From positions 1,198,001-1,262,000 of the forward strand of contig NZ_CP074436.1 of assembly GCF_016858305.2 (NCBI RefSeq): a stretch of 64,000 bases of DNA, given 5' to 3'. Positions within the stretch are counted from its first letter, which is position 1; every line of letters begins with the position of its first letter. The notes beneath the pieces were generated by a model, which did no database searches, had not been told where the DNA came from, and saw only the letters and a list, made by a program, of their open reading frames with translations. Source of the DNA: Polaribacter sp. Q13 (GTDB lineage: Bacteria > Bacteroidota > Bacteroidia > Flavobacteriales > Flavobacteriaceae). A program made the translations under genes and the position numbers. Below, one piece after another: positions 10,462 through 39,238 of this stretch.

Positions 10462-10475
10462 TTATATTCTTATTT

Positions 10476-12427: not shown

Positions 12428-12473
12428 GATCTAATTTATTAAATAGAGTATTTATCCGTTTTTTATTTCATAA

Positions 12474-13256: not shown

Positions 13257-13259
13257 TTA

Positions 13260-14792: not shown

Positions 14793-14893
14793 GTATCGTT
14801 TTAGTTGCCTAAATTATTTAGAAATAATACTTTTCTTTTATTTACCATTTAAAAATATTCAAAAAATTATGTTTCTAAATGAAACGCATTGTA

Positions 14894-17390: not shown

Positions 17391-18617
17391 TTATTTTGGC
17401 ACACTTGCCTTGTAAATTTCTACCTCAGAGGTTGTTGTAATCTGATAAGTTGTATTCGCTTTTATAAGTACAGACTGCCCTTTATCTAAGGAAATAGACT
17501 CGTTATTTTGGGTAACAGTGGCAGCTCCTTTTAAAGCCATTAATATTTCTACAGAATTTGAAGTAGCAGTATGAGTGACCGTTTTTGTCAATTCAATTTT
17601 ACTTAGTTCAAAATCTTTAGCCTTGGTTTTAAAAACAACTTCTCCGTTTGCTTTATTTTCATCACCAAGTAAAATATTCGGAATCGTTTCTTCGAATTTT
17701 GTGTTTTTAATCAATTCGGCAACATCTATATGCTTGCTTGTTAATCCAGCTCTTAAAACATTGTCTGAATTTGCCATTAACTCCATATTTACACCTTCTA
17801 AATACGCATGTGGCACACCTGCATCCTGAAAAATAGCTTCTCCCCTGCTTAAATTTAAAATATTAAAAAAGTAAATAGAAAAGATTCCTTTATCAATATC
17901 TTCAGTATCTTTATTGTTTAATGATTTTGCTGCCCAAAATGCTGGCGAAGATTTCGCTAACTCATTCTTTCTATATTTAGGTAGAATTCTTTTTACCAAA
18001 GGTCTTAAAATTGTATTTACCTCTTCTTGGCTATATTCCATTACCTTTTTATAAAGTCCTAAATACCCTTCTTCTAAAAAAGTGTTTAATAAGAAACTTA
18101 ATTCTACCGTTTCTTTTAAGTTTTTTACTAATTTTTCTTGTTCTAAAAAACCATGTAACAACCAAAAATCTGTTAAAGCCACCATTATTTCTGGCTTGTG
18201 ATTTTCGTCTTTAAAATTTCTATTACTTGCTGTTAAAGGAATTCCTTGTTCGTTTTCTTTTTTATACCCTATTTTAGCCGCAGCAATACTAGGGTGTACT
18301 TGTATAGAAAGCATTTTACTAACATCTAAAACTTTAAACAAATAGGGTAATTTACCAAAGTCGGTTGCCACCTCTGCCCCTAAGTTCTCTGTTCTATTTT
18401 GATCTAAAAACTGCTCTAAAGAAACGCTGCCTTTATCTGTAATTACTTTTGATGGTGCTTTTAAATGCGCCCCTAACCAATATTCTGCATACGTGGTGTT
18501 TGGTACTATCGGTTGTGAAACTAAATTAGGAATGAAGCTTTCTCCCCCCCAATCATAATTTTGCACTTGTCCTTCAATTCTAAATAGTCTATTGTCTTTT
18601 GTATCCAAATTCCCCAT
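17391..18617 (-). CDS. manA: Mannose-6-phosphate isomerase, type I
   Basis: A 408-aa class I phosphomannose isomerase interconverting fructose-6-P and mannose-6-P. Zinc ligands are visible as Q106 and H108 (IQVHPS), E143 (HKPEIM) and H270 (VPHAYLEG). NSDNVLRAGLTSKHID is the conserved block after the last ligand. The C-terminal cupin-like segment is present. It is the last gene of the minus-strand arm that begins with the REC-GT2 fusion, 9 bp after the small GT-like gene. That placement suggests it supplies a mannose precursor (GDP-mannose) to the exopolysaccharide system. Confidence 0.93.
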   Translation of the reverse strand: MGNLDTKDNRLFRIEGQVQNYDWGGESFIPNLVSQPIVPNTTYAEYWLGAHLKAPSKVITDKGSVSLEQFLDQNRTENLGAEVATDFGKLPYLFKVLDVSKMLSIQVHPSIAAAKIGYKKENEQGIPLTASNRNFKDENHKPEIMVALTDFWLLHGFLEQEKLVKNLKETVELSFLLNTFLEEGYLGLYKKVMEYSQEEVNTILRPLVKRILPKYRKNELAKSSPAFWAAKSLNNKDTEDIDKGIFSIYFFNILNLSRGEAIFQDAGVPHAYLEGVNMELMANSDNVLRAGLTSKHIDVAELIKNTKFEETIPNILLGDENKANGEVVFKTKAKDFELSKIELTKTVTHTATSNSVEILMALKGAATVTQNNESISLDKGQSVLIKANTTYQITTTSEVEIYKASVPK

Positions 18618-18626
18618 ATTTTTTTA

Positions 18627-19037
18627 TTAGCCGTTTATTAATTCTTTAAGATCATAGACTTTTCTTAATAGTACTCTTTCATCTATTTTATGAACCAAAT
18701 CTTCCGCAGATATCTTCCTCATTTTCTTCATTAGCGTTTTGTTGAAAATATTTTTTGGTGATGTGTGAACAATCAAATTAATATCTTCTGTTTTAGACAA
18801 AAATCGTACACCCGCTTTTACTGCAGACATGGATGTCTTTTCTTTTCGTAAATTTAAAATAGAAATATCAAATTTAGAAGATTCTTTTAACTTAAAAAGA
18901 AATTTTAATATTTTATTATCATTGCCATTATTTACAAGACATATTTTATATTGTTTATTAAAGAATGATTTTAAATAGAAATTTTCTAAAACATCCATAT
19001 CGTTCTTACCAAAAACAACGATGATCCCTTTCTTCAT
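18627..19037 (-). CDS. Half-length GT2-like protein
   Basis: 136 aa. The alternating pattern IIVVFGKND, YKICLVNNGND, FDISILNLRKEKTSMSAVKAGVRFLSK and INLIVHT follows the first half of a GT2 Rossmann-like domain, including a residual 'VNNG' nucleotide loop and the K-SAVKAG helix. There is no DxD motif and no acceptor half. It lies between the REC-GT2 gene and manA. It could be a regulatory pseudoenzyme or a shortened duplicate of the neighbouring GT2. Catalysis is unlikely from what is visible. Confidence 0.5.
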   Translation of the reverse strand: MKKGIIVVFGKNDMDVLENFYLKSFFNKQYKICLVNNGNDNKILKFLFKLKESSKFDISILNLRKEKTSMSAVKAGVRFLSKTEDINLIVHTSPKNIFNKTLMKKMRKISAEDLVHKIDERVLLRKVYDLKELING

Positions 19038-19108
19038 ATTTCCTTTTTTTTATAATTTTAAGCACTGTTAATGCATTTTAGACCAACAATTCCTTTATTT
19101 TTAACAAA

Positions 19109-20263
19109 CTATTTTTTCTTTCCTTTTCTATAAAACCAAGCTATTTGACCTAATTGCCCCACTATTTTTACAGAATCTTTCATAGATAGTTTAGAACCAT
19201 CTGCATGAATCCATCTTTTTAAGGGTTGCTCACATAACATTTCTTTTGCTTTATCCAATCCATAATGAAGTGTTATTCTTCTAAAAATTTCTATATCAAA
19301 AATCCATTGTGTTACAAATTTATCACCAAAAGAAATATCAATAACATCTTTATGAAATATTTTTGCTCCACATTGTGTATCCTTAAAGTCCATAGAAAGT
19401 ATTTTTCTGATGATAAAATTAATCGTCATACTAATAATTTTCCTTGCAGATTCTTTAGTAATATTCGCCCCCATTCTACTAATTCTAGAACCACTTACTA
19501 TTTTATACTTTTCATTCCCTTCAATAGTGGTAACTAAATCGTCAAAATCGGCTAAATCTGTAGATAAATCGGCATCTAAAAATCCTATAAAGTCTAAATC
19601 TTCTTGTTTAGCCATGTATAACATTCCTTGTCTTACGGCTTCTGCTTTACCTCCATTTTTTTCACAATCGTACACGGTAATAAAATCTTCTCTACCTTTT
19701 CTTAGTGTATTTAAAACTTCTAATGTTTTATCTTTACTTCCATCGTTTACAAAACACAAATGATAGCCAGAGTTTTTATCTATATAATCTGTAAACTCTT
19801 TACTTAACAATCTTTCTTCTTCGTTATAACAAGGAATTACAACACCTACACATCTTTCTTGAATAATGGTGTTTGAGTATTTTTTTGTGCTATCCATATT
19901 TTCTGGAGCACCAATTAATCTTTTTGTTCTTAAGCCAACCTCTGTTAAACTTAATGGCTTTTTCATGTAATCATTTACTCCTAGCTCAAAACCTTTGGTA
20001 ATCATTTCATCATCTGTATTACCAGATAAAATCATAATTGGGGTGTCAGATTTTTTTACTTCTCTAATATGTCTTACAACTTCTAACCCAGAAATGGTAG
20101 GCATATTAATATCAACAATAACTAAATCTGGCTGAAAAGAATTAAATAATTCAATTCCTTTTACACCATCAGTTTCCGTAATTACTTCATAGCCCATTTC
20201 TTTTAATCTAACTTCTAATGGAATTAAAACTAATTTCTGATCATCTATTGCTAATATTTTCAT
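19109..20263 (-). CDS. Response-regulator receiver fused to ALG5/DPM1-like GT2
   Basis: 384 aa in two parts. Residues 1-115 form a receiver domain with the acidic pair D7/D8, phosphoacceptor D51, conserved S80 and K102-P103. Residues 138-384 form a GT2 with VVIPCYNEEE, FVNDGSKDKT (171-180), the DAD metal site (230-232), SGSR (257-260) and KDTQCGAKIF (294-303). The last motif is characteristic of dolichyl/polyprenyl-phosphate glucose and mannose synthases. No membrane helix is evident, so it should act peripherally on lipid phosphate. Its product would be a polyprenyl-P-sugar donor for the GT-C-like protein encoded divergently. Activity control by phosphorylation is inferred from the fusion. 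Confidence 0.88.
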   Translation of the reverse strand: MKILAIDDQKLVLIPLEVRLKEMGYEVITETDGVKGIELFNSFQPDLVIVDINMPTISGLEVVRHIREVKKSDTPIMILSGNTDDEMITKGFELGVNDYMKKPLSLTEVGLRTKRLIGAPENMDSTKKYSNTIIQERCVGVVIPCYNEEERLLSKEFTDYIDKNSGYHLCFVNDGSKDKTLEVLNTLRKGREDFITVYDCEKNGGKAEAVRQGMLYMAKQEDLDFIGFLDADLSTDLADFDDLVTTIEGNEKYKIVSGSRISRMGANITKESARKIISMTINFIIRKILSMDFKDTQCGAKIFHKDVIDISFGDKFVTQWIFDIEIFRRITLHYGLDKAKEMLCEQPLKRWIHADGSKLSMKDSVKIVGQLGQIAWFYRKGKKK

Positions 20264-20295
20264 GTCTGGGGTTTTTTTATTAATTAATTACACTG

Positions 20296-20303
20296 CAAAA
20301 ATA
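20296..20303 (-). promoter_or_regulatory. Candidate -7 box for the REC-GT2 arm
   Basis: TATTTTTG on the minus strand matches the Bacteroidetes TAnnTTTG element. No TTTG lies at the expected -33 distance, as would suit an activator-dependent promoter. The predicted transcription start is near 20289, about 26 nt before the ATG. Confidence 0.45.
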
Positions 20304-20339
20304 CTTTAGTTTTATTACCTTACTTTTAAATTAGTTATT

Positions 20340-20372
20340 AAAGGTAGTTTAACTCAGTTGAAAGGTAGTTTA
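20340..20372. promoter_or_regulatory. Paired 12-bp direct repeats, candidate LytTR operator
   Basis: AAAGGTAGTTTA occurs at 20340-20351 and again, identically, at 20361-20372, a period of 21 bp. LytTR regulators (AgrA, AlgR and relatives) typically bind two about 9-bp direct repeats spaced 12 bp apart, placing both on one helix face. The pair is centred at 20356, about 53-54 bp from the -7 boxes of both divergent promoters. A LytTR regulator is encoded nearby at 32963-33673. Binding is inferred. Confidence 0.6.
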
Positions 20373-20409
20373 CTTTAGACTAATATAAAAAATTATCCTT
20401 AAAAATATT

Positions 20410-20417
20410 TATCTTTA
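20410..20417 (+). promoter_or_regulatory. Candidate -7 box for the plus-strand exopolysaccharide arm
   Basis: TATCTTTA matches seven of eight positions of TAnnTTTG and lies 27 bp before the ATG at 20444. No -33 TTTG is present at the usual 19-21 bp spacing. The direct repeats at 20340-20372 sit at about -52 to -84 relative to the expected start. Confidence 0.4.
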
Positions 20418-20443
20418 CATCATTATAAGCCCGACTTCTGTTA

Positions 20444-23400
20444 ATGAAAGAAAAATCTAATAAATACTTAATTACTGCAATTCTTTTGGCAGTACTTTTT
20501 CATGGATCTACTATTTTCTTTACACTAGAAACTACTTATGATGCTTTAATTCATTTATTTTTTGCAGATCATTATGCACATCATTGGTTTGAACCTTGGA
20601 ACTATAAGTGGTACACTGGTTTTACGGTACAAAGTTATCCGCCTTTAGTACATCAAACAATTGGCGCATTATCTTTAATAGGAGGGCTAAAATTTGGAAT
20701 GTTTACGGTTGCCCTAATTGCTATTTTACTCTTTGTTACGGGTGCTTATAGATATTCTTTACTAATAACAGCAAATAGAACTGTTGCTGGTTATGCGGCT
20801 ATTTTAGCCGTATTTTCTTCCTCTTTTGTAGAAACCTTGCATATTTTTGGGCAATTGCCCAGTATTATTGGAGTTTCCGTTTTAATGCATTCCTTACCAG
20901 AAATTTATTTATGGCTTAAAACAGGTAAATATAAATTTTTCTTTACATCGCTTTCTTTAATTGCCGTTACCGTAACCTCTCATCATGTTACCCCCATTTT
21001 TGGAATGTTATTTTTTATTTTTCCTCTAATTGGTACTGTAATTATGGATGTTGCTAAAGAAGAAGCAGGTTCTTATAAAAATGTTACATTCTTATTGTTT
21101 CTAAAAACGTTTATGAAACAATTAAAACGAAACTTAACATTTGGTTTTTCTGCTTTACTACTTATTATATTTTGCATTTTTCCTTATTGGATGAACTCTA
21201 AATTAAATCCAATTACTCAAGTACCAATTCCGCATGGTTCTAGAGATAGTTTTATAGAAGTAACCTCATCTGGTTTGGTGTTTTTTACAATTCCATGGGG
21301 ACTTTTATTGTTTGTGCTTCCTTATTTATTCTACAGATATTTTAGTAAAAGATATATCTGTTTTGGTATCTCTTTTACCATGTTGGTTATTTTAGGTACA
21401 GGAGGAACAACCCCAATACCCAAAATACTTTTAGGTGAAAATGCCTTTAATATTTTAACGCTAGATAGATTTACACTTTGGGCTACCATTATGTCTATTC
21501 CTATTTTTGGCGAATTTATTTATAGGTTTGTAGAAGGTGATTTAAAAACGTTAATACAAGATCGGTTTGGCGCCGTTTATCATAGATTAATAGGAGGCCT
21601 TTTAGCAGGCGCTTACGTTTCTATGGTCATTTTTACTATGAGCTTAGGATACTTTAGACCGTCACAACCTCAAAAAATAAAAATGTTGCCTATTGTTAAT
21701 TTTTTGAGTCAAGATTCTCATGATCAATGGCGGTATTTAACGTTAGGTTTTGGAGATCAAATGGCATGGTTAGCTGCACAAACAAATGCTTTAAGTGTAG
21801 ATGGTAATTACCACTCTGCAAGACGATTACCAGAATTAACCACAAGACCCATAGAGCGTTTAGAAAATTCTAAATTTAAAGGAGTTGCTGGTATTGGTTC
21901 TTTGCAACAGTTTTTAACAACTCCAGAGAAATACAATTTAAAATATATTTTTTCGAATGATAAATTTTATGATCCGGTATTATTTTTCTGCGGATGGCAG
22001 CGTTTATCTCAGTTAGAAAATGGTATTATGGTTTGGGAAAAACTAAACGTACCTCCTATTTCTTCTATTTTACCAAAAGAAGATGTACCTGCATGGGTGA
22101 AAATAATTTGGGGAATTATTCCTTTTTTAACCGTGCTTATTGCCTTTATTTTAAATGTACAATCCTTATTTGTAAACAGTTTAAAAACAAAAATAAAAGC
22201 GGTACCGGTTTACTTTAAATTTAAAGTAGAATATAATAAATTTCCTAGAATTGTTTTAAAAGCACTTCATATTTGGGCAGTAGTATTAATACTTGTTATT
22301 GCGTATGCTTGCTATATGTTTTACATTAAAAATGATACCCAAAGGTCTCCAGAAAATGTGGTAAAAGCGTATTATGACGCTGTCGATTTTAAAGAATTGA
22401 ATAAAAGTTTTACCTATATAGACCCAGAAGATCAACTTACACGTGCTCAATATTTATTAGAAATATCGGTTACAGATGGTTTATTAAGTTCTTATGCAAA
22501 ATTAGATGCTATTACTACAGAAATTATAAAACAAACAGATAGTATGGCTACTTTAAAAGTAGAAACAAAATGGATTACTCCTCTTGAAAAATTATCGAAA
22601 ACAGAATTTAAAACAGCGGTTAAAAGAAACAGTAAGTGGTATTTAAAACCTACAAGAAAATCGATAGATTTACCGCCAGATCAATTATACTCTAAGAATT
22701 CTACGGGTTATTTTAACCAAGGAAGAAGAAGAATTACCACAGAACAAACCCATCATGAAGATGTGTTAAAACAACCTGTATTAGAAATTGTATCTGCTAA
22801 ACTGATAAAATTTAACAAACGGTATGCTATTATTGGTGAAGTACAAAATATAGACAATGTTCCATCAGACGTAGTCTTAAAAGGAACGCTTTATAATGAT
22901 GATAATAAAGAGCTGGCAACCTACAATGCAAAACACATTTTAAAACACAAGTTAATGCCTAAAGAAATTAGTGCTTTTAGAATTAATTTTGAAGGTATTG
23001 CCTGGTCTAAAACAAAAGATTCTATTCCAAAAACATTTAATCCAGATGAATTTACGCCTGTAGAATTAAGTGAACAACCCACAAAATTTAATTTACAAGC
23101 TGCAGGAAACACCACAAATTCTGATCTTTTTAAAGACATTGTTTTAAGTGAAATGAATATTACACCTAATGTTATTAGCGGAACTTTATTTAATAGTGGA
23201 ATTCAAGAAATTACAGTTCCTCAATTAATTATTACATTTTACAATGAGAAAAAAGAAATGATTTGGGTAGACAACCTGTTTTTAAAAGAAGGAATACGAC
23301 AAGAAAGAAAACTGCGTTTTAACTATCCAATACCGCTAAACCCAGTTATAAAAACCATTAATGATGACATGAGTTTTTGTTTTGTAAACGGTTTGCCAAA

Positions 23401-23533
23401 TAAAGATATTGCCTTTAAAATAATGCCAAAAAGAATAAAAAATCAAACCATTGGTAACTTACAAAAAGTAACACATCCACTTTTTAGTTATGTAAGAATA
23501 GAATTAAGTATGTATATCGGTAATCCAAAATAA
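20444..23533 (+). CDS. PTPS-related GT-C-like membrane protein with large periplasmic domain
   Basis: 1029 aa. Residues 1-430 hold about nine to eleven membrane segments. The first loop contains TTYDALIHLFFADHYAHHW, with acidic residues D33 and D42, followed by PWNYKWYTGF and YPPLVHQ. This is the pattern of the '6-pyruvoyl-tetrahydropterin synthase-related' membrane family, which belongs with GT-C enzymes that use polyprenyl-P-sugar donors. Further helices occur near 545-565 and 600-620. Residues 625-1029 are soluble and probably periplasmic: an NTF2-like segment, then two FxLYD-like beta domains. The stop overlaps the next ATG (TAATG). Likely polymerises or decorates the exported glycan; this is inference. 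Confidence 0.75.
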   Translation: MKEKSNKYLITAILLAVLFHGSTIFFTLETTYDALIHLFFADHYAHHWFEPWNYKWYTGFTVQSYPPLVHQTIGALSLIGGLKFGMFTVALIAILLFVTGAYRYSLLITANRTVAGYAAILAVFSSSFVETLHIFGQLPSIIGVSVLMHSLPEIYLWLKTGKYKFFFTSLSLIAVTVTSHHVTPIFGMLFFIFPLIGTVIMDVAKEEAGSYKNVTFLLFLKTFMKQLKRNLTFGFSALLLIIFCIFPYWMNSKLNPITQVPIPHGSRDSFIEVTSSGLVFFTIPWGLLLFVLPYLFYRYFSKRYICFGISFTMLVILGTGGTTPIPKILLGENAFNILTLDRFTLWATIMSIPIFGEFIYRFVEGDLKTLIQDRFGAVYHRLIGGLLAGAYVSMVIFTMSLGYFRPSQPQKIKMLPIVNFLSQDSHDQWRYLTLGFGDQMAWLAAQTNALSVDGNYHSARRLPELTTRPIERLENSKFKGVAGIGSLQQFLTTPEKYNLKYIFSNDKFYDPVLFFCGWQRLSQLENGIMVWEKLNVPPISSILPKEDVPAWVKIIWGIIPFLTVLIAFILNVQSLFVNSLKTKIKAVPVYFKFKVEYNKFPRIVLKALHIWAVVLILVIAYACYMFYIKNDTQRSPENVVKAYYDAVDFKELNKSFTYIDPEDQLTRAQYLLEISVTDGLLSSYAKLDAITTEIIKQTDSMATLKVETKWITPLEKLSKTEFKTAVKRNSKWYLKPTRKSIDLPPDQLYSKNSTGYFNQGRRRITTEQTHHEDVLKQPVLEIVSAKLIKFNKRYAIIGEVQNIDNVPSDVVLKGTLYNDDNKELATYNAKHILKHKLMPKEISAFRINFEGIAWSKTKDSIPKTFNPDEFTPVELSEQPTKFNLQAAGNTTNSDLFKDIVLSEMNITPNVISGTLFNSGIQEITVPQLIITFYNEKKEMIWVDNLFLKEGIRQERKLRFNYPIPLNPVIKTINDDMSFCFVNGLPNKDIAFKIMPKRIKNQTIGNLQKVTHPLFSYVRIELSMYIGNPK

Positions 23534-24750
23534 TGAAGTTAAAACAAGTTTTTTTTCTGATACTGTTTCAGTTCGTAGTGATTTCTTTTCTTGCACAAGA
23601 AACAACTGCGACGCATTCTGGTATTTCTTTAATATCTACAAAAAAAACTTTTATTGTGGGTGATAAAATTACGCTCGAGTTTCTTGTAAAAAATGACTCG
23701 ATTATTCAATTATATTGCGCTAATAGTTATGGTGCTACCGTTTTAACACCTAAAGTTATAGCCAAAAAAAACACGTTTAAAATCCCCTCTTTTATGTCAA
23801 AAAAAAGAGGGGTATTATCTTGGAGCATTATAAATTCTTCGGAAGAAATTTCTGGTAATATATCCATTCTTTCGCAACAGCAACCAACCACTATAGAAAC
23901 CTATGTAGGGCCACCAAGTATAGATGCCGGTGGTTTAGATTACACCATGTTAGTGGTAATACCCACAGATAGTTTAGACAACCCTATTTTAGATCATAGT
24001 AAAGTTGATGTAAAGTATCAATTTTTGAAATCAGAAAAATCTCAACCTATTTTAACCGATAAATTAATAGGCTATAAAAACATCTTTTCTCCTAAAAAAA
24101 GTGGAAGAATGATTATTTCATCAGAATCTTATGGTTTAAATTCTAAAGAATTTGATGTAAATATTATGCCTGCTATTGCTACCAATTTTAAACTTTTTGC
24201 AAGCAGAAATCATGAATATGCAGATGGTAATCAAATTACAACCTTTTACACATCCATCATAAAAGACAAAAACAGAAATATTGTAAGTGATGGGAGTTAT
24301 ATAGAATTTTATATCACCAATAAAAAGGGAGATATTTTAAAAACCACTGGTACTACAATAAATGGTGTTGCTCATGCAAAAATTATCCATCCAGATTTTG
24401 AAGAAGTATGGAAAGTGAAAGCATATTTTATAGGTATTTCAGAAAGTAACGCCATAACAATTAAGTACAAAAAAGTAATTGAAGATTATACTGTTTCTTT
24501 TACAGCACATAATAGAAGCATAAAAATAGGACCCTTAAAAAGTTTTATGAAACAAATAATTCCAGATGGACTCTCTGTAAAATTATCTATTTATAAAAAT
24601 AACACTCTTACTAAAGAGCTTTTTAAAGAATCTTTAAATGGGTTTGCTACGTTTTATTTAGATCCCAATATTTTCGAAAATAATTTGTATAAAATTGTTA
24701 TTGAAACTGCTGGAATTAAAAAAGAATTTAAAAGTTTTAAATTATGGTAA
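23533..24750 (+). CDS. Periplasmic Ig-like multidomain protein
   Basis: 405 aa with a cleavable signal peptide (hydrophobic 5-20, cleavage near FLAQE). The rest is beta-rich and looks like three or four Ig-like domains: about 28-125, 125-215, 215-320 (YADGNQITTFYTSIIKDKNRN, the intimin/invasin or Big-1-like pattern) and 320-405. There is no catalytic motif and no sorting domain, so it probably stays in the periplasm. Start and end both overlap the neighbouring genes (1 bp and 7 bp). A scaffold between the GT-C-like protein and the hydrolase is a reasonable guess. Confidence 0.6.
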   Translation: MKLKQVFFLILFQFVVISFLAQETTATHSGISLISTKKTFIVGDKITLEFLVKNDSIIQLYCANSYGATVLTPKVIAKKNTFKIPSFMSKKRGVLSWSIINSSEEISGNISILSQQQPTTIETYVGPPSIDAGGLDYTMLVVIPTDSLDNPILDHSKVDVKYQFLKSEKSQPILTDKLIGYKNIFSPKKSGRMIISSESYGLNSKEFDVNIMPAIATNFKLFASRNHEYADGNQITTFYTSIIKDKNRNIVSDGSYIEFYITNKKGDILKTTGTTINGVAHAKIIHPDFEEVWKVKAYFIGISESNAITIKYKKVIEDYTVSFTAHNRSIKIGPLKSFMKQIIPDGLSVKLSIYKNNTLTKELFKESLNGFATFYLDPNIFENNLYKIVIETAGIKKEFKSFKLW

Positions 24751-26261
24751 AAACGAACAAACGAATTCTTAGAGGTGTTTTAATGCTTACTTATTTATTT
24801 ATAATAGGAATTCTTTTATTCTTAGTAAGCTCTTTGTACAGTTTTTTAAATACAGGTGCAGACAGAAGTAAAATGTTGCACACAGAGGTAAAACAAGTAG
24901 AACAATATTTACCTAAAGTTACTTGGAAAAATGATGGAAACAAAGGAAGAAAAATAAGTCAAGAAAAAATAATTGCTGTTCAGAATGATTATTTAGACGC
25001 TTGGTACGTAAAACAAGTTGCCTATAAAACCAATACTAGAGTAGGAATTGAAGACTATTTTACTAAAAGCTCTCGAAAAAACATATACAACATATTAGAT
25101 TACAATAAATTACATAAAACGTCTATAGAGTCTACTACCTTAGAACACAACTTAGATCTCGAGTTTTTTAGTGAAGATGGGCAATTAATTGTTTTAAAAG
25201 ATTCTAATGCTTTAGAGTATAAAAAAATTTTAAAAGACAAAAAATTAATTTTAGAATCTACTGAAGTCTCCACTTATAGATACGTTTTATTACTAGAAGA
25301 TGGTTTTTGGCGGGTAAGACATATGGTAAAAGAAAGTACTGCTAAATTTAAGGATACCTCTCAAAAAAATCCATTAAATTTTACAAATATAAAAGGGATT
25401 AACTACTATCCGCAAGCGACTCCTTGGAATATGTATGGGGATGCATTTGACATCAATATTATTAAAAACGATTTTAGAATTATTAAAAAAGCCGGTTTAA
25501 ATTCTATAAGAATATTTGTGCCTTACGAAGATTTTGGAAAAGCAAATGTAAAATTTGAGAAGTTAGAAAAACTAAAAAAAGTTTTAGATACGGCGTTCGC
25601 AGAAGACTTAAAAGTTGTAGTTACTTTGTTTGATTTTTACGGAAATTATGATGTTTTAGATTGGACATTGAACCAAAGACATGCCGAAAAAATTGTAGAA
25701 ACATTTAAAGATCATCCCGCTATTTTAGCCTGGGATGTTAAAAATGAACCGAACTTAGATTTTGCTTCTAGAGGCGAAGTAAATGTAACCGCTTGGTTAG
25801 ATTTTATGATTATCTTAATAAAAAAAATAGATAAAAAACATCCTGTAACTATTGGTTGGTCTAATACAAAAAGTGCCACTATTTTAAAAGATAAGGTAGA
25901 TGTAGTCTCTTTTCATTATTATGAAGATATAGAGCAACTTGAAAGCGAATACCTAAAATTAAAAGAAGAAATAAAAGACAAACCAATCGTTTTACAAGAG
26001 TTTGGTTTATCTTCTTATGGTGGTTTTTGGAGACCTTTTGTGGGCTCTGAAGAAAAACAAGCAAACTATTATAAAGAAATACAAAGCATCATGACAAAAA
26101 ACTCAATTCCTTTTATGTCATGGACTTTATATGATTTTGATGTTGTCCCCAAAGAAGTTTTAGGAAGTCTTCCTTGGAGAACAAACCCTCAGAAAAAATT
26201 TGGTTTTATCACCAGTTCTGGTGCAAAGAAATTATCTTATAAATATATTTCTAAAGAATAA
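24744..26261 (+). CDS. Membrane-anchored clan GH-A (GH5/GH39-like) glycoside hydrolase
   Basis: 505 aa. One N-terminal membrane helix (about 11-33) is followed by an NTF2-like segment to about 205 and a TIM barrel (about 215-505). The retaining catalytic pair is visible: acid/base E335 in WDVKNEPN and nucleophile E419 in VLQEFG. Barrel strands such as SIRIFVPYEDFG and VVTLFDFYGNYD fit the cellulase-like clan. Synthase-dependent exopolysaccharide systems commonly carry such a periplasmic hydrolase (PslG, BcsZ, PelA) to release or proofread polymer. It ends 3 bp before the convergent GT4 gene. Confidence 0.8.
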   Translation: MVKTNKRILRGVLMLTYLFIIGILLFLVSSLYSFLNTGADRSKMLHTEVKQVEQYLPKVTWKNDGNKGRKISQEKIIAVQNDYLDAWYVKQVAYKTNTRVGIEDYFTKSSRKNIYNILDYNKLHKTSIESTTLEHNLDLEFFSEDGQLIVLKDSNALEYKKILKDKKLILESTEVSTYRYVLLLEDGFWRVRHMVKESTAKFKDTSQKNPLNFTNIKGINYYPQATPWNMYGDAFDINIIKNDFRIIKKAGLNSIRIFVPYEDFGKANVKFEKLEKLKKVLDTAFAEDLKVVVTLFDFYGNYDVLDWTLNQRHAEKIVETFKDHPAILAWDVKNEPNLDFASRGEVNVTAWLDFMIILIKKIDKKHPVTIGWSNTKSATILKDKVDVVSFHYYEDIEQLESEYLKLKEEIKDKPIVLQEFGLSSYGGFWRPFVGSEEKQANYYKEIQSIMTKNSIPFMSWTLYDFDVVPKEVLGSLPWRTNPQKKFGFITSSGAKKLSYKYISKE

Positions 26262-26264
26262 TGA

Positions 26265-27446
26265 TTACTTCTTTTTAGCTATAATTTTATCAAATTCTTC
26301 TAAATACATATTCGTAATTCTTTCCATAGGAAAAGCAGTTGCAGCTTTATAATTAGCTTCACCTAATTCAATTCTATAGGCATCATTAGTTACAATCGCT
26401 TTAATGGCGTTTGCTAAACTTGTTACACTTTCTGGTTCAAAAAACTCTCCTCTATATCCTTCATCTTCAATTAAAGTGGCTAAATCTCCTAAATTTGGCA
26501 TTACTACTGCTCTACCATAACTACCTGCTTGGTGTAACACTCCAGAACTGCCTGTTGTAGACGTATAAGGAAAAACAACTACAGCACTTTCTGTAAACAA
26601 CGGTTCTACTTCATTTTCTTCTACATACCCAGTAAACGTAAGTTGTGGTACATGTTTATACGTTTCTTTAGCATTTTCTAAATAACCGGGTACGTTTGGG
26701 TTGTCTGTTCCGGCAATTACAATTTCTAAATCTAAGCCAGTTTCTTTTCTTACAATTTCTACAGCTTCAATCATCGCTTCTACTTTTTTGTAGGTTCCGA
26801 ATTTACCAAAAGCCATAATTTTTAAAGGACCTTCTGGCAATTTTTGTGATGGATTATCAGGAATTTCAAAAGTTCCATGAGGAATCATTTTTACATTATC
26901 AACCTTATATTTATCTTCTAAGGTAGTAACATATTTATCCATGGTTACCGTAACTAAATCTGCTTTTAAAATCAATCTGGTTAAGGATGTACCAATAAAA
27001 TTATATATTTTTTGAGCCAATTTATTAGAAGTAAATCCAGCACTATCTAAATCTACTTGTTCTAAAATATTATGTAATAAAACGATGGTAGGAATTCCTT
27101 TCATTTTACAAATTAAAGGCAATGTTAACCCTAATGCAGCAACAACTTTCTTATCTCCAAACTTCATAAATTGCAAGTTGAATAAAACAGCATCTGGTTT
27201 GGTTTCATTAATTGCTTTTATAACATTATTTGTATTACCGTAGCTATTAAATTTCCAACATTCTTTCACCGTAATTTTACATCCTTTCTCCGTAAAATTA
27301 ATATCTTTTCCTTCTGGAGTTTCATCCGTTAAAAGAATTAATTCTGTTACTTTTTTACTTTGCCTAAAACTTTTTACTAAGTGATATGCGTATTCGTTTA
27401 AAGTTACTTTACTTGGTGGATATGCAGTTACGAGGGCTAATTTCAT
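26265..27446 (-). CDS. Glycosyltransferase family 4 (exopolysaccharide cluster)
   Basis: A 393-aa GT-B protein, cytoplasmic. It opens KLALVTAYPPSKVTLNEYAYH and the C-terminal domain starts with IMAFGKFGTYKKVEAMIEAV. The motif near residue 283 reads ESAVVVFPYTSTTGSSGVLHQAG, in which the second glutamate of EX7E is replaced by a SSGVLHQAG-type loop; this variant occurs in several GT4 subfamilies. With the flippase gene 112 bp upstream (27559-28827), the pair resembles PelF/PelG in order and type. It may be the chain-extending enzyme of this system, but direct similarity to PelF is not claimed. Confidence 0.85.
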   Translation of the reverse strand: MKLALVTAYPPSKVTLNEYAYHLVKSFRQSKKVTELILLTDETPEGKDINFTEKGCKITVKECWKFNSYGNTNNVIKAINETKPDAVLFNLQFMKFGDKKVVAALGLTLPLICKMKGIPTIVLLHNILEQVDLDSAGFTSNKLAQKIYNFIGTSLTRLILKADLVTVTMDKYVTTLEDKYKVDNVKMIPHGTFEIPDNPSQKLPEGPLKIMAFGKFGTYKKVEAMIEAVEIVRKETGLDLEIVIAGTDNPNVPGYLENAKETYKHVPQLTFTGYVEENEVEPLFTESAVVVFPYTSTTGSSGVLHQAGSYGRAVVMPNLGDLATLIEDEGYRGEFFEPESVTSLANAIKAIVTNDAYRIELGEANYKAATAFPMERITNMYLEEFDKIIAKKK

Positions 27447-27558
27447 ATTGTGAATTTTTAATTATGATTCAAATTTCAGGTTTTTACTTTTATTTTTTAT
27501 ACTAAAACGGCTCAAATACCATTATATATAGATGATTGGAAAATAGGTTTAGATATTA

Positions 27559-28827
27559 TTATTCTTTAGTTTCTTTAATGGCTTTTGTAGCTTTAGAATC
27601 TTTAAAAAAGAAGAAACTAAGTTGCACTATTAAAAGTAAAACCATTGCTATAATTTGCACATGAACAACTTGCTCTAATGTTTCATGATACAGCACAACC
27701 AAAACTATTTGTAACATTCCAAAAATTCCAGAAAGTACAACAGGTACATATTTATCTAACGACAAATAATAATATGCAAATATATTTGAGATGGCAAAAA
27801 TTCCTGTCGCAGAAGCATATTTCCATAATAATGATGCAACTGATAAGTATTCACTACCAAATAAAATTTTAATTATTTCATCAGGAAATAAAAAGCAACT
27901 AATAACAATTACAGCAGCAATAAAACCAATATAAACAACATATTTTAACAAGATTGGTAACGTATCTTTGCCTTCTTTTTTTAATTGAACAACTTTTGGT
28001 AAAAGTAACATTACAAACATCCAAGCAATAAAATAGACAACTCTACCAATAAGAGCTAATGAAGCGTATAAACCAGCCTCATAAGATTCAAAATAATGTT
28101 TTACTAATAAAATATCACTGTTGTTAATAATGATTTGTGTTAACTCGTAAAAAGCTGTAATAACAAAGAAGTTCTTTACCAACTTTTTATTATCTGCCTC
28201 TAAACTAAAAGGTTTAAGTAAAGAAATATGGCTGCTTTTAAACGGAATTAATCCAAAAACAAAAGAACAAAAAATACCGATTGCTATAATTAAAGAAGAA
28301 TCAATATCTAAAAAATATAATAATGCGAAGGTTAATATTAAACGACTAATCATTTCTGATTGATACGTAATTGATAAAGATTTTAATTCTTGTTTTCCTT
28401 GAAAAACGCCTCTATTTACACTCATTAAAAAATAAAACGGAACTCCAAATCCAAAAATAACAAACATTGTAGAAGAAGTTGTTTTAAAGAAATGCTGCAA
28501 TTGCGTTGAAAAAACAATAATAGCAATCCCTAAAAAGATTCCGGTAAATAAAGCATTTTTATAAATTTTAGAAATAAAGCCGGTAAAAATAGTATCTTCA
28601 AAAAGTACAGAAAATTTAGCTGTTACCAATTGAAAAGTCATTGCCACAAAAGACAATACCAATAAAAATGTAATTAAGATAGCTGCATCTGCAAATTTTT
28701 CTGGCCCTAAAACACGTCCTAAAACCAAATTGTATAAATAGTTTCCTCCATTTACAAGAAGAACACTTAACATAAATAACTGTTCCGGTTTAATTCCGTT
28801 TTTCACAAATCGCATAATTGCTTGCAT
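27559..28827 (-). CDS. Oligosaccharide flippase-family membrane protein (PelG/Wzx-like)
   Basis: A 422-aa protein with about 12 hydrophobic helices. It starts LFMLSVLLVNGGNYLYNLVLGRVLGPEKFADAA, the usual PST/MATE exporter opening. GVFQGKQELKSLSITYQ and AGLYASLALIGRVVYFIAW are family-typical loops. It is separate from the Wzx of the upxY operon and lies next to a GT4 and an outer-membrane TPR-barrel gene. A role in moving the polymer or its lipid-linked unit across the inner membrane is inferred. Confidence 0.8.
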   Translation of the reverse strand: MQAIMRFVKNGIKPEQLFMLSVLLVNGGNYLYNLVLGRVLGPEKFADAAILITFLLVLSFVAMTFQLVTAKFSVLFEDTIFTGFISKIYKNALFTGIFLGIAIIVFSTQLQHFFKTTSSTMFVIFGFGVPFYFLMSVNRGVFQGKQELKSLSITYQSEMISRLILTFALLYFLDIDSSLIIAIGIFCSFVFGLIPFKSSHISLLKPFSLEADNKKLVKNFFVITAFYELTQIIINNSDILLVKHYFESYEAGLYASLALIGRVVYFIAWMFVMLLLPKVVQLKKEGKDTLPILLKYVVYIGFIAAVIVISCFLFPDEIIKILFGSEYLSVASLLWKYASATGIFAISNIFAYYYLSLDKYVPVVLSGIFGMLQIVLVVLYHETLEQVVHVQIIAMVLLLIVQLSFFFFKDSKATKAIKETKE

Positions 28828-29052
28828 ATTATTCCTCTTTTTATTGAGCTATTTTTACGTTCTCAAATTAATCATAAATTTCTTTACAATCATCAATATT
28901 CTATTACTATTTTCTAGATAACCCAAAATCTTACTAAAAACAAATATCACCTAGTTTCTTCAAAAATAATTCCTTTTCACGTTGAAAAACACTTTTATAT
29001 CGATAAAAGATTAATTACTATTGCTTAACTTGCCAAAGCTAAATTTAAACCT

Positions 29053-31131
29053 ATGAAAATAATATATTCTACTCTTTTCTTCTTTCTTTTCTTAAGTATA
29101 CAAAGCTTTAGTCAAGATATGCAAGAAGGTTTTACCTACTTAGAAACAGGTAAATACCAAGAAGCTGAAGTTTTTTTTAAAGATATCCTAAAAGAATACC
29201 CTACAAACAAAACGGCAAGACTTTGTTACGGAAGAGCCATTGGTTTAAATGGAAAGGCAACAGCTGCGGTAACACTTTTTACAAATTTACTAAAAGATTA
29301 TCCCACAGATTTTGAAGTGAAACTGAATTATGCAGAATCTTTACTTTGGAATAAAAATTATCCTGATGCAAAATCTTTTTATCAAACTTTACTAAAAGAA
29401 AATGATAAAAGCTTTCCTGCATTGTTAGGTTATGCGAATACTTTATCTAATTTAAAAGAATTTGAAGACGCTTTAATCTACGTAGATAAAGCTTTAGAAG
29501 TACTCCCTGGAAACCCTAATGCATTGGTTTCTAAGAAATATATGAGATTAGGATTGGCGAGTAAAAAAGTAACGGATCAAAAATATGAGGAAGCAGAAAC
29601 AATTTTAAAAGAAAATTTCACTTCTTTCAAAGACGATAAGGAAACATTACTAAACCTTGCTAATTTGTATTTAATTTCTAAACAAATAGAAAAAGCGAAA
29701 AGCACTTATGAAATTATAGGTAAAAAACCAGAAGATAAACTAACCTCTTTAAACGGAATTTCTTTAGCTTATCACCTAGATACTGATGATAAAACGGCAT
29801 TAACTATAAGTAAAACAGCACTAAAAAGCATTGATAAAAACACCTCTGAAACCTTAAAAAATCAAACCACAGAAAGATATATTCAAGCATTAATTTGGAA
29901 TAAAAAATATACACCTGCCGAAACTGAAATTGATAAATTATTAGACAACAATGAAAAACCAGAAAACTGGATGCTTTCTTTAAGAGCTACTCTTAATATT
30001 TATAAAAGTGATTTTAAGAAGAGTATAGCAGATTATAATTTAATCTTAAAAAAAGACAGCGCTTCGTTTGATGGTAATCTTGGAAAAGCAAATGCCCTGA
30101 AAGCCTCTGGTTACTATAACAATGCTTATAAAAGTGCAGAAAACACACTTACTTTTTATGAAAAACAGAAAGATGCTTCTAACTTTATAAAACAATTAGA
30201 TGTAAGCTTTACCCCTTTTGTAGAAACCAAATTTTCTTATTCTTATGATAATGGAGATAACGAAGCAAATGCTTACGATGTAAAAGCGGAAATTCCTTTT
30301 TCTACAAAGTTTAAAATTTCAGCCAATTATAATTATAGAACAACCCTTAATAATCAAATTGACTCATTAAAAGCTACTACCAATAATTTATTATTAGGTG
30401 TTTCTTATCAAATATTAAATAATGTTACCTTAAAAGGTAGTTTTGGTGTTACGTCTTCCGATTCAGAAGCTGAAAAGTACACTCAATTATTAACAGATAT
30501 TTCTGTTAATATAAAACCATTTAAGCTTCAAAGCTTAGATTTAGGTTACAAAAGAGATGTTCAGAATTTTAATGCCGCGTTATTAAATGATGAAATTGTA
30601 CAAAATAATCTTATTTTAAATTATAGTTTAAATACAAACTTTAACCTCGGTTGGTTTACGCAGTATTATTATACATGGCAAAGTGATGAAAACGTTAGAA
30701 ACCTCTTATTTACGTCTCTTTACTATAATATCTTTGCGAAACCATCTATAAAAGCAGGTCTTAATTATCAAAATATTTCTTTTAAAGACTCTAAAGATAA
30801 TTATTTTAGTCCTAGTAAATTTAATGCCGTAGAGATTTTTGTTGATCTAATAAAAGATGAAGCTGCCGCTAAGAAAAAAGAATGGTTTTATGGTTTAACT
30901 GCAGCCACTGGTCTACAATATATAGAAAATGATGACGCTCAAAGCACGTATAGAGTTCAGGCTAAATTAGGATATAAATTTTCTGAACGTGCATTAATAA
31001 ACATCTATGGTTTGCAAAGTAATATAGCTTCTACTGCTGCATCTGCAACAACCTCAGCAAGTTTTACGTACACAGAATTTGGGTTACGTTTTAAATGGAT
31101 CTTCTTAAAAAAACCTTTGTATAAAAAATAA
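29053..31131 (+). CDS. TPR periplasmic domain plus outer-membrane beta-barrel exporter
   Basis: 692 aa. A signal peptide (cleavage near SFSQD) precedes about ten TPR-like helical repeats between residues 25 and 390 (FTYLETGKYQEAEVFFKDIL, ALLGYANTLSNLKEFEDAL and so on). From about 395 to the end, alternating amphipathic strands (FSYSYDNGDNEA, YNYRTTLNN, WFTQYYYTWQSDEN, TEFGLRFKWIF) form a beta-barrel. This two-part layout matches BcsC, PgaA and PelB exopolysaccharide secretins. It most likely guides the polymer from the hydrolase/GT-C assembly through the outer membrane. Confidence 0.8.
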   Translation: MKIIYSTLFFFLFLSIQSFSQDMQEGFTYLETGKYQEAEVFFKDILKEYPTNKTARLCYGRAIGLNGKATAAVTLFTNLLKDYPTDFEVKLNYAESLLWNKNYPDAKSFYQTLLKENDKSFPALLGYANTLSNLKEFEDALIYVDKALEVLPGNPNALVSKKYMRLGLASKKVTDQKYEEAETILKENFTSFKDDKETLLNLANLYLISKQIEKAKSTYEIIGKKPEDKLTSLNGISLAYHLDTDDKTALTISKTALKSIDKNTSETLKNQTTERYIQALIWNKKYTPAETEIDKLLDNNEKPENWMLSLRATLNIYKSDFKKSIADYNLILKKDSASFDGNLGKANALKASGYYNNAYKSAENTLTFYEKQKDASNFIKQLDVSFTPFVETKFSYSYDNGDNEANAYDVKAEIPFSTKFKISANYNYRTTLNNQIDSLKATTNNLLLGVSYQILNNVTLKGSFGVTSSDSEAEKYTQLLTDISVNIKPFKLQSLDLGYKRDVQNFNAALLNDEIVQNNLILNYSLNTNFNLGWFTQYYYTWQSDENVRNLLFTSLYYNIFAKPSIKAGLNYQNISFKDSKDNYFSPSKFNAVEIFVDLIKDEAAAKKKEWFYGLTAATGLQYIENDDAQSTYRVQAKLGYKFSERALINIYGLQSNIASTAASATTSASFTYTEFGLRFKWIFLKKPLYKK

Positions 31132-31155
31132 GGGCAAAAGATTTCTCTTTTGCCC
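31132..31155. terminator. Bidirectional hairpin between convergent genes
   Basis: A perfect 10-bp stem (GGGCAAAAGA and its complement) with a 4-nt loop starts immediately after the stop of the barrel gene. On the minus strand it is followed by a T-rich run (TTATTTTTTAT), making it a good terminator for the converging T9SS-protein gene. On the plus strand the tail is weaker. Confidence 0.75.
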
Positions 31156-31183
31156 AACTACATTCCTACTTTGTTTTGGGGGA

Positions 31184-32863
31184 CTAGTTGACGATAAAGG
31201 TTCCAGAATGTTGATTATTTTCATCGTCAATAAGCCTGTATTTATAAACTCCTTTTTTTAATTGAGGAGCATTGTATTGTACTTTTTTAGAAGAAGAAGA
31301 ATTTGTATTAATTTTCTGAGCATCTACAATTCTACCCATTAAATTATATACATTAATTTGAATATATTTAGCTACTTTAGGTAACTGTATTGTTGTAGAA
31401 TTTGTAAAAGGATTTGGATAGTTTAATAATTTTTCGCTAAGCTCTTCTGTAAAACTTTCCTCATTTAAATTATTGTTTAGAGTAAATGCTATCTTATTTA
31501 TATCTAAACTAAAAGGCTTATAATATGTGTAATCACCTATTACTGAAAATACTATTGTTTTAATACTTGAAACCATAACCTTCTTCCCCGCATCATCTAC
31601 AAAATCTAACAATGAAATGGTATATGTTTTCTCTGCTGAATTTGCAGGAATCGTATATCGTAACCTATGCTCCCAGTCTCTATTTTCATTCGTCATAATA
31701 ACGACTTCTACCGGTTCATTATTTTTAATATTGAAATTTATAAAATTATACCCCTCAACACTTAAACTTTCATTTCTAGGTAAAAGGTGTCTAAATAAAT
31801 TAATATTTCCTTTTACTTCTCCTATTACCTTTACGCTCCTATCCACTTCATAAATAGCATCATCTTCTTCTCTTTCAGATAAGTTTACTTCAAAATTAGA
31901 AACCGTTACATACTCTTTCAAATAATCTAAACCCCAAGGTCCATCTGCCACGTATAAAGCATCTTTTTGCTTAGAAGAAGTTGTTTCTAAATAAAAACCA
32001 ATATCAAATAAAACACCTGTTTCTATAGATAATACTTCATTATAGTTTCCTGAAAGTGAAAAAACATTGGCTGCTTTAATATGTGCTGTTAATTCTGTTT
32101 CGGCAATATTACCAACAAAATTAACTGACTTTTCTTGTGTTCTATTTACAATATTTAGGTTTAGAATACCATTAACATAACTACCAGATTTAACAAAAAC
32201 ATTTGGTAAAACACTTGTTTCTAAGGTACTTTTTAATCCATCTTTAGATGAATGTTTGTCTATAATAAAATTTGCTATTGATAAAACTTGAGAAAAGGAT
32301 GTTCCAAAAATTATATAGTTATGATAATTACCAGTTGGGTATTGGTCTATATTCCAGAAACTAAATAATTCATTTTCTTTTGTATCAACTCTAATAGAAA
32401 AGCGTAATGTATATTTAGTTTGACCAGAAACACTACTTATTTTAGATTTAATTACTTGATGCTCATTTACAAGTATAGTACTAATACTATCTAAACGATC
32501 ATTATTTAATCTGTCATAAATAATTTTTGAATGATCATAAACAACTCCATCCGATTTGGTTGCTATAACAGAAGATACTTTATTTTTACCCTGATAATAA
32601 CTTACGGAAAAAGTCTCTTTAATATTTAAATTTTTAGAGAGTCCTTTAGGTTTAAAAACAAATGCCGTTTCTGTATGATTACTTCCTGTTTCTGGTAAAT
32701 AATCTATTAAAGCATTTGTTATATTACTTTTAGATAATTGACTCTTATTAAACCTTACGCCTTCTCCAACACCAAATCCATCGGCTTTGTTTGTTTGAGC
32801 GTTTAAGTTTGTAGCTACTATAAAAGTAGAAATTAGCAATAAATTTTTTATGATATATTTCAT
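31184..32863 (-). CDS. T9SS-secreted protein with type A sorting domain
   Basis: 559 aa. A signal peptide (cleavage near NLNAQT) leads into a large beta-rich region. The C-terminal about 80 residues carry LNYPNPFTNSTTIQLP, VYNLMGRIV and KKGVYKYRL, the type IX secretion sorting domain. Residues 25-220 (a TLRFSIRVDTKEN segment, SFWNIDQYPTGNYHN) look like a lectin or lyase-type jelly roll, and 320-460 like a carbohydrate-binding sandwich. No catalytic motif is recognisable. Placed between the exporter and the signalling operon, it could be a cell-surface or matrix protein that binds the exported glycan; this is speculation. Confidence 0.75.
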   Translation of the reverse strand: MKYIIKNLLLISTFIVATNLNAQTNKADGFGVGEGVRFNKSQLSKSNITNALIDYLPETGSNHTETAFVFKPKGLSKNLNIKETFSVSYYQGKNKVSSVIATKSDGVVYDHSKIIYDRLNNDRLDSISTILVNEHQVIKSKISSVSGQTKYTLRFSIRVDTKENELFSFWNIDQYPTGNYHNYIIFGTSFSQVLSIANFIIDKHSSKDGLKSTLETSVLPNVFVKSGSYVNGILNLNIVNRTQEKSVNFVGNIAETELTAHIKAANVFSLSGNYNEVLSIETGVLFDIGFYLETTSSKQKDALYVADGPWGLDYLKEYVTVSNFEVNLSEREEDDAIYEVDRSVKVIGEVKGNINLFRHLLPRNESLSVEGYNFINFNIKNNEPVEVVIMTNENRDWEHRLRYTIPANSAEKTYTISLLDFVDDAGKKVMVSSIKTIVFSVIGDYTYYKPFSLDINKIAFTLNNNLNEESFTEELSEKLLNYPNPFTNSTTIQLPKVAKYIQINVYNLMGRIVDAQKINTNSSSSKKVQYNAPQLKKGVYKYRLIDDENNQHSGTFIVN

Positions 32864-32962: not shown

Positions 32963-33673
32963 TTAAAGTAAATCTAATCTTTTCATTAATTCTGGTCGTT
33001 TAGACCTACTAACAGGAATAACGTCTTTCTTTATTAAGACACTATTGTCTTCAATATCTATAATTTTTTTAATATTGATAATATAAGAACGATGTATTTT
33101 AAGGAATAGAGAATCTGGTAGTTTTTCTTCAATTTTCTTAAGAGTAGAATGTACTTTATAATCTTTTGTTTCTGTTTTTATTTTAATATAATCTCCTTTG
33201 GCTTCTATTAAATAAATACTAGGTAAATCTATTTTTATCAATCTACGATCTATGTTTACGTAAAAATCGTTTTCAATATCTATGGGTTTAGAAGTTTCTT
33301 TTTTTACTTCATTTGAGGCTAAATTTTTTCTTTCAGCTTTATCAATTGCTTTTTTAAAACGAGGTAACTCTAAAGGTTTTAATAAATAATCTACAATAAA
33401 GTCATACTCAAAAGCTTCTATAGCAAATTTAGGATCTGAAGTAGTTAAAATAATTTTTGGTGGGTTTTTTAAACTTTTAATAAAATCTAAACCACTAAAA
33501 TTAGGCATATGAATATCTAAAAAGATTAAGTCTACCTTATTCTCATTCAAATACTTTATTGCTTCTATGGCACTTGGAAACTCTTCTAAAAGGTTTAAAG
33601 AATCTATTTCATTGCATAAGGTTTTAATTATAACCCTTGCCATTTTTTCATCATCAATAATAATACAATTCAT
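32963..33673 (-). CDS. LytTR-family response regulator
   Basis: 236 aa. The receiver domain (1-120) has IIDDEK, phosphoacceptor D53 in FLDIHMPNFSG and K-P near residue 98. The LytTR DNA-binding domain occupies about 135-236 (FYVNIDRRLIKIDL, IYLIEAKGDYIKI, LFLKIHRSYIINIKKI). It is the last gene of the signalling operon, 5 bp after the Hpt gene, so it is the probable phosphorelay output. The 21-bp-period direct repeats at 20340-20372 are a candidate target. Confidence 0.92.
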   Translation of the reverse strand: MNCIIIDDEKMARVIIKTLCNEIDSLNLLEEFPSAIEAIKYLNENKVDLIFLDIHMPNFSGLDFIKSLKNPPKIILTTSDPKFAIEAFEYDFIVDYLLKPLELPRFKKAIDKAERKNLASNEVKKETSKPIDIENDFYVNIDRRLIKIDLPSIYLIEAKGDYIKIKTETKDYKVHSTLKKIEEKLPDSLFLKIHRSYIINIKKIIDIEDNSVLIKKDVIPVSRSKRPELMKRLDLL

Positions 33674-33678
33674 AAAAC

Positions 33679-33996: not shown

Positions 33997-33998
33997 GG

Positions 33999-38788: not shown

Positions 38789-38789
38789 A

Positions 38790-39203: not shown

Positions 39204-39230
39204 TTTAGGAGGTTTTACGTTTATTTTATA

Positions 39231-39238
39231 CAAATTTA
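39231..39238 (-). promoter_or_regulatory. -7 promoter box of the signalling operon
   Basis: TAAATTTG on the minus strand is a perfect TAnnTTTG element, giving a start near 39225 and a roughly 20-nt leader before the regulator ATG at 39203. A -33 TTTG is not evident. Confidence 0.45.

Follow-up and report, generated by a model that had tools for sequence, protein, structure and literature searches.

We describe a conserved seven-gene locus of Polaribacter sp. Q13 (Flavobacteriaceae) that probably encodes a trans-envelope system of Bacteroidota for the synthesis and secretion of a polysaccharide, placed under the control of a phosphorelay and not of cyclic di-GMP (c-di-GMP). The locus was read in a stretch of 64 000 nucleotides, here called the window, from a genome of 4.42 Mb in one contig (NZ_CP074436.1). 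Its core, at 19109–31131, consists of a receiver fused to a family 2 glycosyltransferase (GT2), a membrane protein of GT-C fold, a secreted Ig-like protein, a clan GH-A hydrolase, a GT4 glycosyltransferase, a MOP-superfamily flippase-like transporter, and an outer-membrane barrel preceded by a tetratricopeptide-repeat (TPR) superhelix. A first-pass annotation, made from the sequence alone, had proposed an undescribed exopolysaccharide synthesis and export system comprising ten genes at 17391–32863; all ten open reading frames (ORFs) are open there, and their families could be assigned. The locus likely makes a polysaccharide. The proposal stands as far as a conserved, co-inherited gene set with an exporter fold is concerned, while the product is a predicted one, as are the nature of the glycan, the order of the enzymes and any response to nitric oxide (NO).

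The gene set was compared across 100 loci, namely the best 80 of 543 relatives in a species-level genome collection (at least 70% identical to the query and repetitive at the genus level, from Polaribacter, Tenacibaculum, Winogradskyella, Olleya, Algibacter, Formosa, Dokdonia, Kordia, Tamlana, and others) and 20 more distant loci. Core order and orientation are kept in 59 of the 70 loci with enough flanking sequence (no less than 9.5 kb past the GT-C gene and 2.5 kb ahead of it), and in the remaining 11 at least one core gene has moved or was not found within the stretch. The complete core is present, for example, in the Polaribacter locus L031. Other genes of the window served as controls, on stretches of unequal length: four upstream genes occur in none of the 100 loci, a small gene at 17022 in three, and ManA in 12, and five downstream genes occur in none of 40. 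Thus, the recurrence of seven genes in one order and orientation, with most other neighbors of the window not retained, exceeds what chance would give. Co-inheritance was also assessed in 199 genomes covering 198 genera of Flavobacteriaceae, some of which are the same strains as named loci. The GT-C protein is present in 55 of these genomes, the hydrolase in 54 and the flippase in 52, and no genome has the hydrolase or flippase (E ≤ 1e-20) without the GT-C protein. Only three carriers lack a partner: G079, whose GT-C gene is present as broken pieces, lacks both, and G048 and G106 lack the flippase. In five carriers (G124, G138, G164, G177, and G195) the GT-C and flippase genes lie on separate contigs. 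The flippase match of G126 and G156 has an in-frame stop, from either decay or sequencing error. The first-pass annotation had staked its proposal on co-occurrence of these genes in other genomes, and on both comparisons it survives.

The limits of the set had been drawn differently, and here only the seven-gene core is retained. ManA was rejected as a core member, since 12 of 80 loci have it next to the core. So was the surface protein secreted by the type IX secretion system (T9SS), which was found in 37 of 80 loci; if only the 63 loci showing the TPR-barrel gene are counted, the share is 37 of 63, although some stretches stop shortly past the barrel and the family evolves quickly. Conversely, a sensory relay at 32963–39233 that proves to be a stable neighbor had been left out.

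The outer-membrane end of the core resembles, in its predicted fold, the exporter of synthase-dependent exopolysaccharide systems. As the first-pass annotation had predicted, the TPR-barrel protein is modeled with an exporter fold, its best structural matches being PelB, PgaA, and BcsC, and it couples a TPR domain to an outer-membrane pore in the manner of such systems. In the portions of the literature cited here and below, synthase-dependent systems (cellulose, poly-N-acetylglucosamine, alginate, and Pel) likewise combine a periplasmic TPR part with a 16-strand barrel and a hydrolase in the locus, whereas the present core has a GT4 and a MOP protein in place of a multi-transmembrane GT2 synthase, adds a GT-C protein and a polyprenyl-phosphate sugar synthase, and has no c-di-GMP component among its matches (PMC7112194, PMC9601211). 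Systems of this type are further defined by a regulatory domain or co-polymerase that binds c-di-GMP, a synthase in the inner membrane, and an enzyme that modifies the polymer in the periplasm (PMC7112194). The earlier claim that no BcsA, Alg8, or PgaC homolog is present is correct in that the core has no membrane GT2 of this type, but the catalytic part of its GT2 does give a weak PgaC-like match (54.7 bits, with the cut-off at 422.3). The GT4 has no transmembrane segment. The membrane protein of Pel is of MOP type, and the GT4 and MOP protein could, by analogy with Pel, act jointly as an inner-membrane synthase.

This analogy raises the question of whether the locus is a diverged Pel system (PelA to PelG; PMC7112168), with which it shares a GT4, a MOP-type membrane protein, a TPR-barrel, and a hydrolase, and whose PelB is among the top structural matches of the barrel. 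Such an origin is very improbable: the GT-C, GT2, and Ig-like proteins are extra, the neighbors form a phosphorelay, the PelG model (PF16933) has no match in the Polaribacter genome (positive in one of 14 controls, Thermotoga maritima), no GGDEF domain is found in that genome, and no Pel-named family occurs among the GT4, flippase, or hydrolase matches. Membership in Pel was therefore rejected on the absence of PelG. No PelD-named family appears among the core matches either, PelD and PelE not having been searched genome-wide.

A second comparison concerns the inner-membrane and periplasmic proteins. The GT-C protein has a predicted STT3/ArnT-like membrane fold, with STT3, AglB, and PglB as the nearest chains, and an acidic residue in its first external loop, as expected of the GT-C superfamily; it also contains an NTF2-like domain (residues 634–739) and a strand-rich C-terminal part that is probably Ig-like. 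Sequence searches of the PDB returned no match at E ≤ 1 for either the GT-C protein or the flippase, and the PF10131 profile matched nothing, controls included, and is uninformative. The gene for the secreted Ig-like protein is conserved after the GT-C gene. The hydrolase has a GH2-type TIM barrel (PDB relatives in GH2, GH158, and GH5), a single N-terminal hydrophobic segment, and two glutamates, E335 and E419, that do not vary among 21 sequences; it is a putative periplasmic modification enzyme, to judge from its predicted activity and location. With Psl and other Wzx/Wzy systems the core has in common a flippase family, a GT4, and a clan GH-A hydrolase, the counterpart in Psl being PslG. In a Wzx/Wzy-like pathway, the GT4 would build a lipid-linked unit, the MOP protein would flip it, the GT-C protein would polymerize it, and a synthase-type barrel would replace the OPX exporter. 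PF01943 is indeed a polysaccharide flippase family, and STT3, AglB, and PglB, which the GT-C model most resembles, use lipid-diphosphate glycans, but the pathway appears unlikely, as only one GT4 and one GT2 are present, and no initiating phosphoglycosyl transferase (PGT), PCP/Wzc, or OPX family appears among the Pfam and NCBIfam matches of the ten genes, the rest of the genome, where such genes could lie, not having been searched and a family not listed among matches not being excluded. Alternatively, the glycan might stay attached, the locus decorating a surface protein or lipid (for example, a gliding or S-layer glycan) that the barrel passes outward. GT-C enzymes of the STT3/PglB/PMT kind glycosylate proteins, and the T9SS surface protein often adjoins the core; against this, the exporter fold groups with those of free-polymer exporters, and the T9SS gene accompanies the barrel in only the fraction of loci given above, with the same caveats. 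We consider this alternative distinctly improbable. Taken together, the lack of a c-di-GMP component and of PelG, and the absence of PGT, PCP, and OPX from the core, set the system apart from the synthase-dependent, Pel, and Wzx/Wzy types.

Independence from c-di-GMP is suggested by the distribution of GGDEF domains. No match was found in the Polaribacter genome or in any of the 55 carriers, in a search whose control was positive in 8 of 14 genomes. Only four of the 199 family genomes have a GGDEF match, two of them above the cut-off, and none is a carrier. Furthermore, no c-di-GMP-binding domain or co-polymerase is among the core matches, PilZ not having been searched genome-wide.

A candidate point of control is the receiver–GT2 fusion, which was also seen in Zobellia. 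Its GT2 part is related in the PDB to the GtrB-type protein sll0501 (E 4e-7) and to ArnC (E 5e-7), and it has the acidic motifs of polyprenyl-phosphate sugar synthases (GtrB/ArnC/ALG5), D230, D232, and D295 being the same in each of 18 full-length fusions that were aligned. The first-pass annotation had likewise named a polyprenyl-P-sugar synthase here, and its substrate is a predicted one. The receiver part keeps the acidic pair (D7 and D8), the phosphoacceptor D51, S80, and K102 of an active receiver in all 18. The receiver lies within the GT2 ORF in 82 of 95 loci and is missing from it in 13; when counted as fused to or directly beside the GT2, it is found in 83 of 96. A universal fusion was therefore rejected, being absent from those 13 loci and from all ten GT2 loci (0 of 10 proteins with a receiver) of the second family described below. 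In Myxococcus xanthus, the free receiver EpsW activates the initiating phosphoglycosyl transferase EpsZ, and small monoPGTs with receiver domains are also mentioned (PMC12802240). In both cases the proposed logic has a receiver act directly on an enzyme from an early step of polysaccharide synthesis, but here the receiver is fused, and to a polyprenyl-phosphate-sugar GT2 rather than to a PGT (PMC12802240). Archaeal fusions of a receiver to a GT2-type domain, such as the BcsA-like (PF13641) MTH_548, have within archaea been detected in three genera of Methanobacteriaceae only, and a locus of the present kind is not described in the portion of that paper considered (PMC5847659). Because of these precedents, neither receiver control nor a receiver–GT2 fusion is new by itself; for a receiver on a polyprenyl-phosphate sugar synthase within an export locus, no precedent was found in the open-access literature covered. 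A STAS-domain gene of about 90 aa (for example, L031:18395–18667) lies upstream of the flippase gene in 53 of the 80 loci whose stretches leave space for it; PF01740 scores above the cut-off in one of three tested. It is not in the window, where the gap upstream of the flippase is 225 bp.

Beyond the T9SS gene lie seven signaling genes, all on the minus strand, with a LytTR response regulator nearest the core and an H-NOX heme protein and a single-domain receiver farthest from it (Table 1). Their conservation was measured in 40 downstream regions of 20 kb, one per genome and read outward from the flippase, which represent 40 of the 55 carriers; the others were the Polaribacter genome itself, the five genomes listed above as having these two genes on separate contigs, G048, G079, and G106 (without a flippase match), G008, G062, and G147 (short contigs), G126, and G001 and G026 (shifted layout). 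In the last two, which were read separately, the relay adjoins the TPR-barrel gene. The relay is wholly missing from four of the 40 regions (L155, L160, L166, and L176), and the T9SS protein is present in 21. Kinase profiles cross-match, so two kinase matches may represent one gene where the FIST gene is missing. The H-NOX protein has a PF07700 domain, H102, and YKSSR at 133–137 (YxSxR), and it matches PDB 6bdd at 332.7 bits, an entry named aldolase that we take to be the Kordia algicida H-NOX. The FIST protein reaches 55.6 bits against the NosP model NF041558 (cut-off 450) and is called NosP-like only.

Table 1. Genes of the core, its accessories, and the adjacent relay (window positions; regions are the 40 downstream regions defined in the text)
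Feature	Position	Strand	Basis or occurrence
ManA, mannose-6-phosphate isomerase class I (accessory)	17391..18617	-	TIGR00218 255.6 bits, cut-off 116.2
136-aa protein, weakly receiver-like (accessory)	18627..19037	-	no Pfam match; clusters with receiver ORFs
Receiver fused to GT2, polyprenyl-phosphate sugar synthase type	19109..20263	-	PF00072 + PF00535
Membrane GT-C-fold protein, 1029 aa	20444..23533	+	predicted fold; no Pfam match
Secreted Ig-like protein	23533..24750	+	Big_1 20.3 bits, below cut-off 34.9; N-terminal hydrophobic segment
Membrane-anchored clan GH-A hydrolase	24744..26261	+	PF02836 43.3 bits, cut-off 21
GT4 glycosyltransferase	26265..27446	-	PF13692/PF00534; conserved among loci
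MOP-superfamily flippase-like transporter	27559..28827	-	PF01943 30.7 bits, cut-off 28.2
TPR superhelix + 16-strand outer-membrane barrel, predicted polysaccharide exporter	29053..31131	+	structure model
T9SS-secreted surface protein, variable (accessory)	31184..32863	-	PF18962/TIGR04183 (Por_Secre_tail)
LytTR response regulator	32963..33673	-	PF04397, PF00072; 34/40 regions
Hpt phosphotransfer protein	33679..33996	-	PF01627; 36/40 regions
Histidine kinase	33999..35090	-	PF00512, PF02518; 36/40 regions
FIST-domain sensor, NosP-like	35042..36187	-	PF08495, PF10442; 21/40 regions
PAS histidine kinase	36188..38167	-	family match; 36/40 regions
H-NOX heme gas sensor	38249..38788	-	PF07700 137.5 bits; 33/40 regions
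Single-domain receiver	38790..39233	-	PF00072 84.7 bits; 33/40 regions

The association of the relay with the core extends to whole genomes: H-NOX is present in 50 of the 55 carriers and 28 of the 144 non-carriers (Fisher p 4e-21, phylogeny ignored), and in 41 of the 50 double-positive genomes it lies within 40 kb of the GT-C gene. One may argue that the relay is a syntenic neighbor whose targets lie elsewhere, leaving the polysaccharide genes outside its control. The 28 genomes with H-NOX but no core, and the nine double-positives in which H-NOX is on another contig (eight) or about 2.3 Mb away (one), speak for such independence and weigh against the control that we propose. Yet in four of those eight split cases (G124, G164, G177, and G195) H-NOX is 9–14 kb from the flippase, most other neighbors of the window are not retained, and, as shown below, the proximity recurs in a second family and Portibacter lacus holds core and relay as one block. 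An unconnected relay is thus rather doubtful. In known H-NOX and NosP signaling, heme sensors, kinases, and receivers are tied to biofilm formation, and most of the described outputs are either c-di-GMP enzymes or relays of quorum sensing. Legionella Hnox2 has a kinase for a neighbor, together with a CheY-like receiver whose output is unknown, whereas the outputs here would be LytTR and possibly a glycosyltransferase, with no GGDEF (PMC8738867, PMC11237717).

To look beyond Flavobacteriaceae, 395 genomes across the phylum were searched, of which 12 have the GT-C protein and one (G348) belongs to another family; the GT-C regions of this genome and of P. lacus are identical, and NCBI places P. 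lacus in Saprospiria/Saprospirales. In the family of G348, 27 of 150 genomes carry a divergent version, and a distribution limited to one family was thus rejected. Core-protein profiles were used to read 16 of the 27 carrier loci, those on longer contigs: the GT-C, Ig-like, and hydrolase genes are in all 16 (the hydrolase short in one), the GT4 in 14, the TPR-barrel in 13, the flippase in 12, the GT2 in 10, LytTR in nine, a PAS-kinase-like protein in seven, H-NOX in two, and STAS-like ORFs in nine. Their GT-C proteins are 40–45% identical to that of the window and retain D33 and H37. As in the first family, H-NOX is associated with the core at the genome level (26 of 27 carriers and 35 of 123 non-carriers, p 3e-11) and lies within 40 kb in 15 of the 26. 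GGDEF matches occur in eight of the 150 genomes, including one carrier. That carrier, G693, is also the only one without H-NOX; its genome is incomplete, and the coincidence may be chance.

In P. lacus (L182, L183; G348), core and relay form a single block of about 22 kb near a contig end, which was probably acquired laterally. In the GT-C tree (FastTree, midpoint rooted), 34 flavobacterial-type rows including P. lacus form one group (local support 0.997), and P. lacus sits close to Formosa, a long way from the 16 other rows of its family, a position that fits lateral transfer. The G+C content is 0.33–0.38 in the block, 0.37–0.41 in the preceding 10 kb, and 0.35–0.36 in the following 5 kb; owing to this last value, composition alone does not settle the origin.

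These observations suggest a scheme for the whole system. Cytoplasmic synthesis of the main chain would fall to the GT4, and the MOP protein would carry this chain or its lipid-linked precursor across the inner membrane. The GT2 would load a hexose onto polyprenyl phosphate, and the GT-C enzyme would add that sugar to the periplasmic glycan as a branch or an extension. The Ig and NTF2-like domains may then grip the chain, trimming or release may be the task of the GH-A enzyme, and the TPR-barrel would export the product. H-NOX, joined by the NosP-like FIST protein in about half of the loci, would tune the kinases, and phosphate would pass via Hpt to LytTR, affecting transcription, and, where fused, to the GT2 receiver, affecting enzyme activity. 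The pairing of kinases with receivers, the gas response, the sugar, and its linkage are putative elements of this scheme.

Elsewhere in the window, 782–15463 is a surface-glycan cluster distinct from the core (several GT4 and GT2 genes, hexapeptide acyltransferases, DUF2264, a MATE-type flippase, and a NusG-like gene); four of its genes were tested, and none of the 100 core loci carries them. A region resembling sugar or starch use lies at 39388–47078 and 58854–59876 (KDPG aldolase-type, phosphofructokinase, PfkB, LacI regulators, and alpha-amylase). Rfam and tRNA scans found nothing. The core locus is not identifiable in the open-access PMC literature as far as it was covered; the Tenacibaculum maritimum genome paper names an exopolysaccharide region, MARIT_2522–2537, which was not compared with the core (PMC5561996).

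In summary, we tentatively suggest, as something that may well prove too broad, that the locus represents a new class of secretion machine, widespread in marine Bacteroidota, which joins a synthase-type exporter to a GT4, a flippase, and a GT-C enzyme, and in which a heme gas-sensing phosphorelay replaces c-di-GMP and, in most carriers among the Flavobacteriaceae, does so by phosphorylating the lipid-charging enzyme directly. Marine Flavobacteriaceae settle on particles and algae, and, with GGDEF matches so scarce in the family sample, matrix switching there would call for another explanation. The locus offers named genes that can be deleted, NO or another heme ligand as a candidate input, and the GT2 receiver as a candidate control point, all testable in cultured genera that carry it, and the adjacency of the relay suggests that these bacteria may start and stop slime production independently of the usual messenger molecule.

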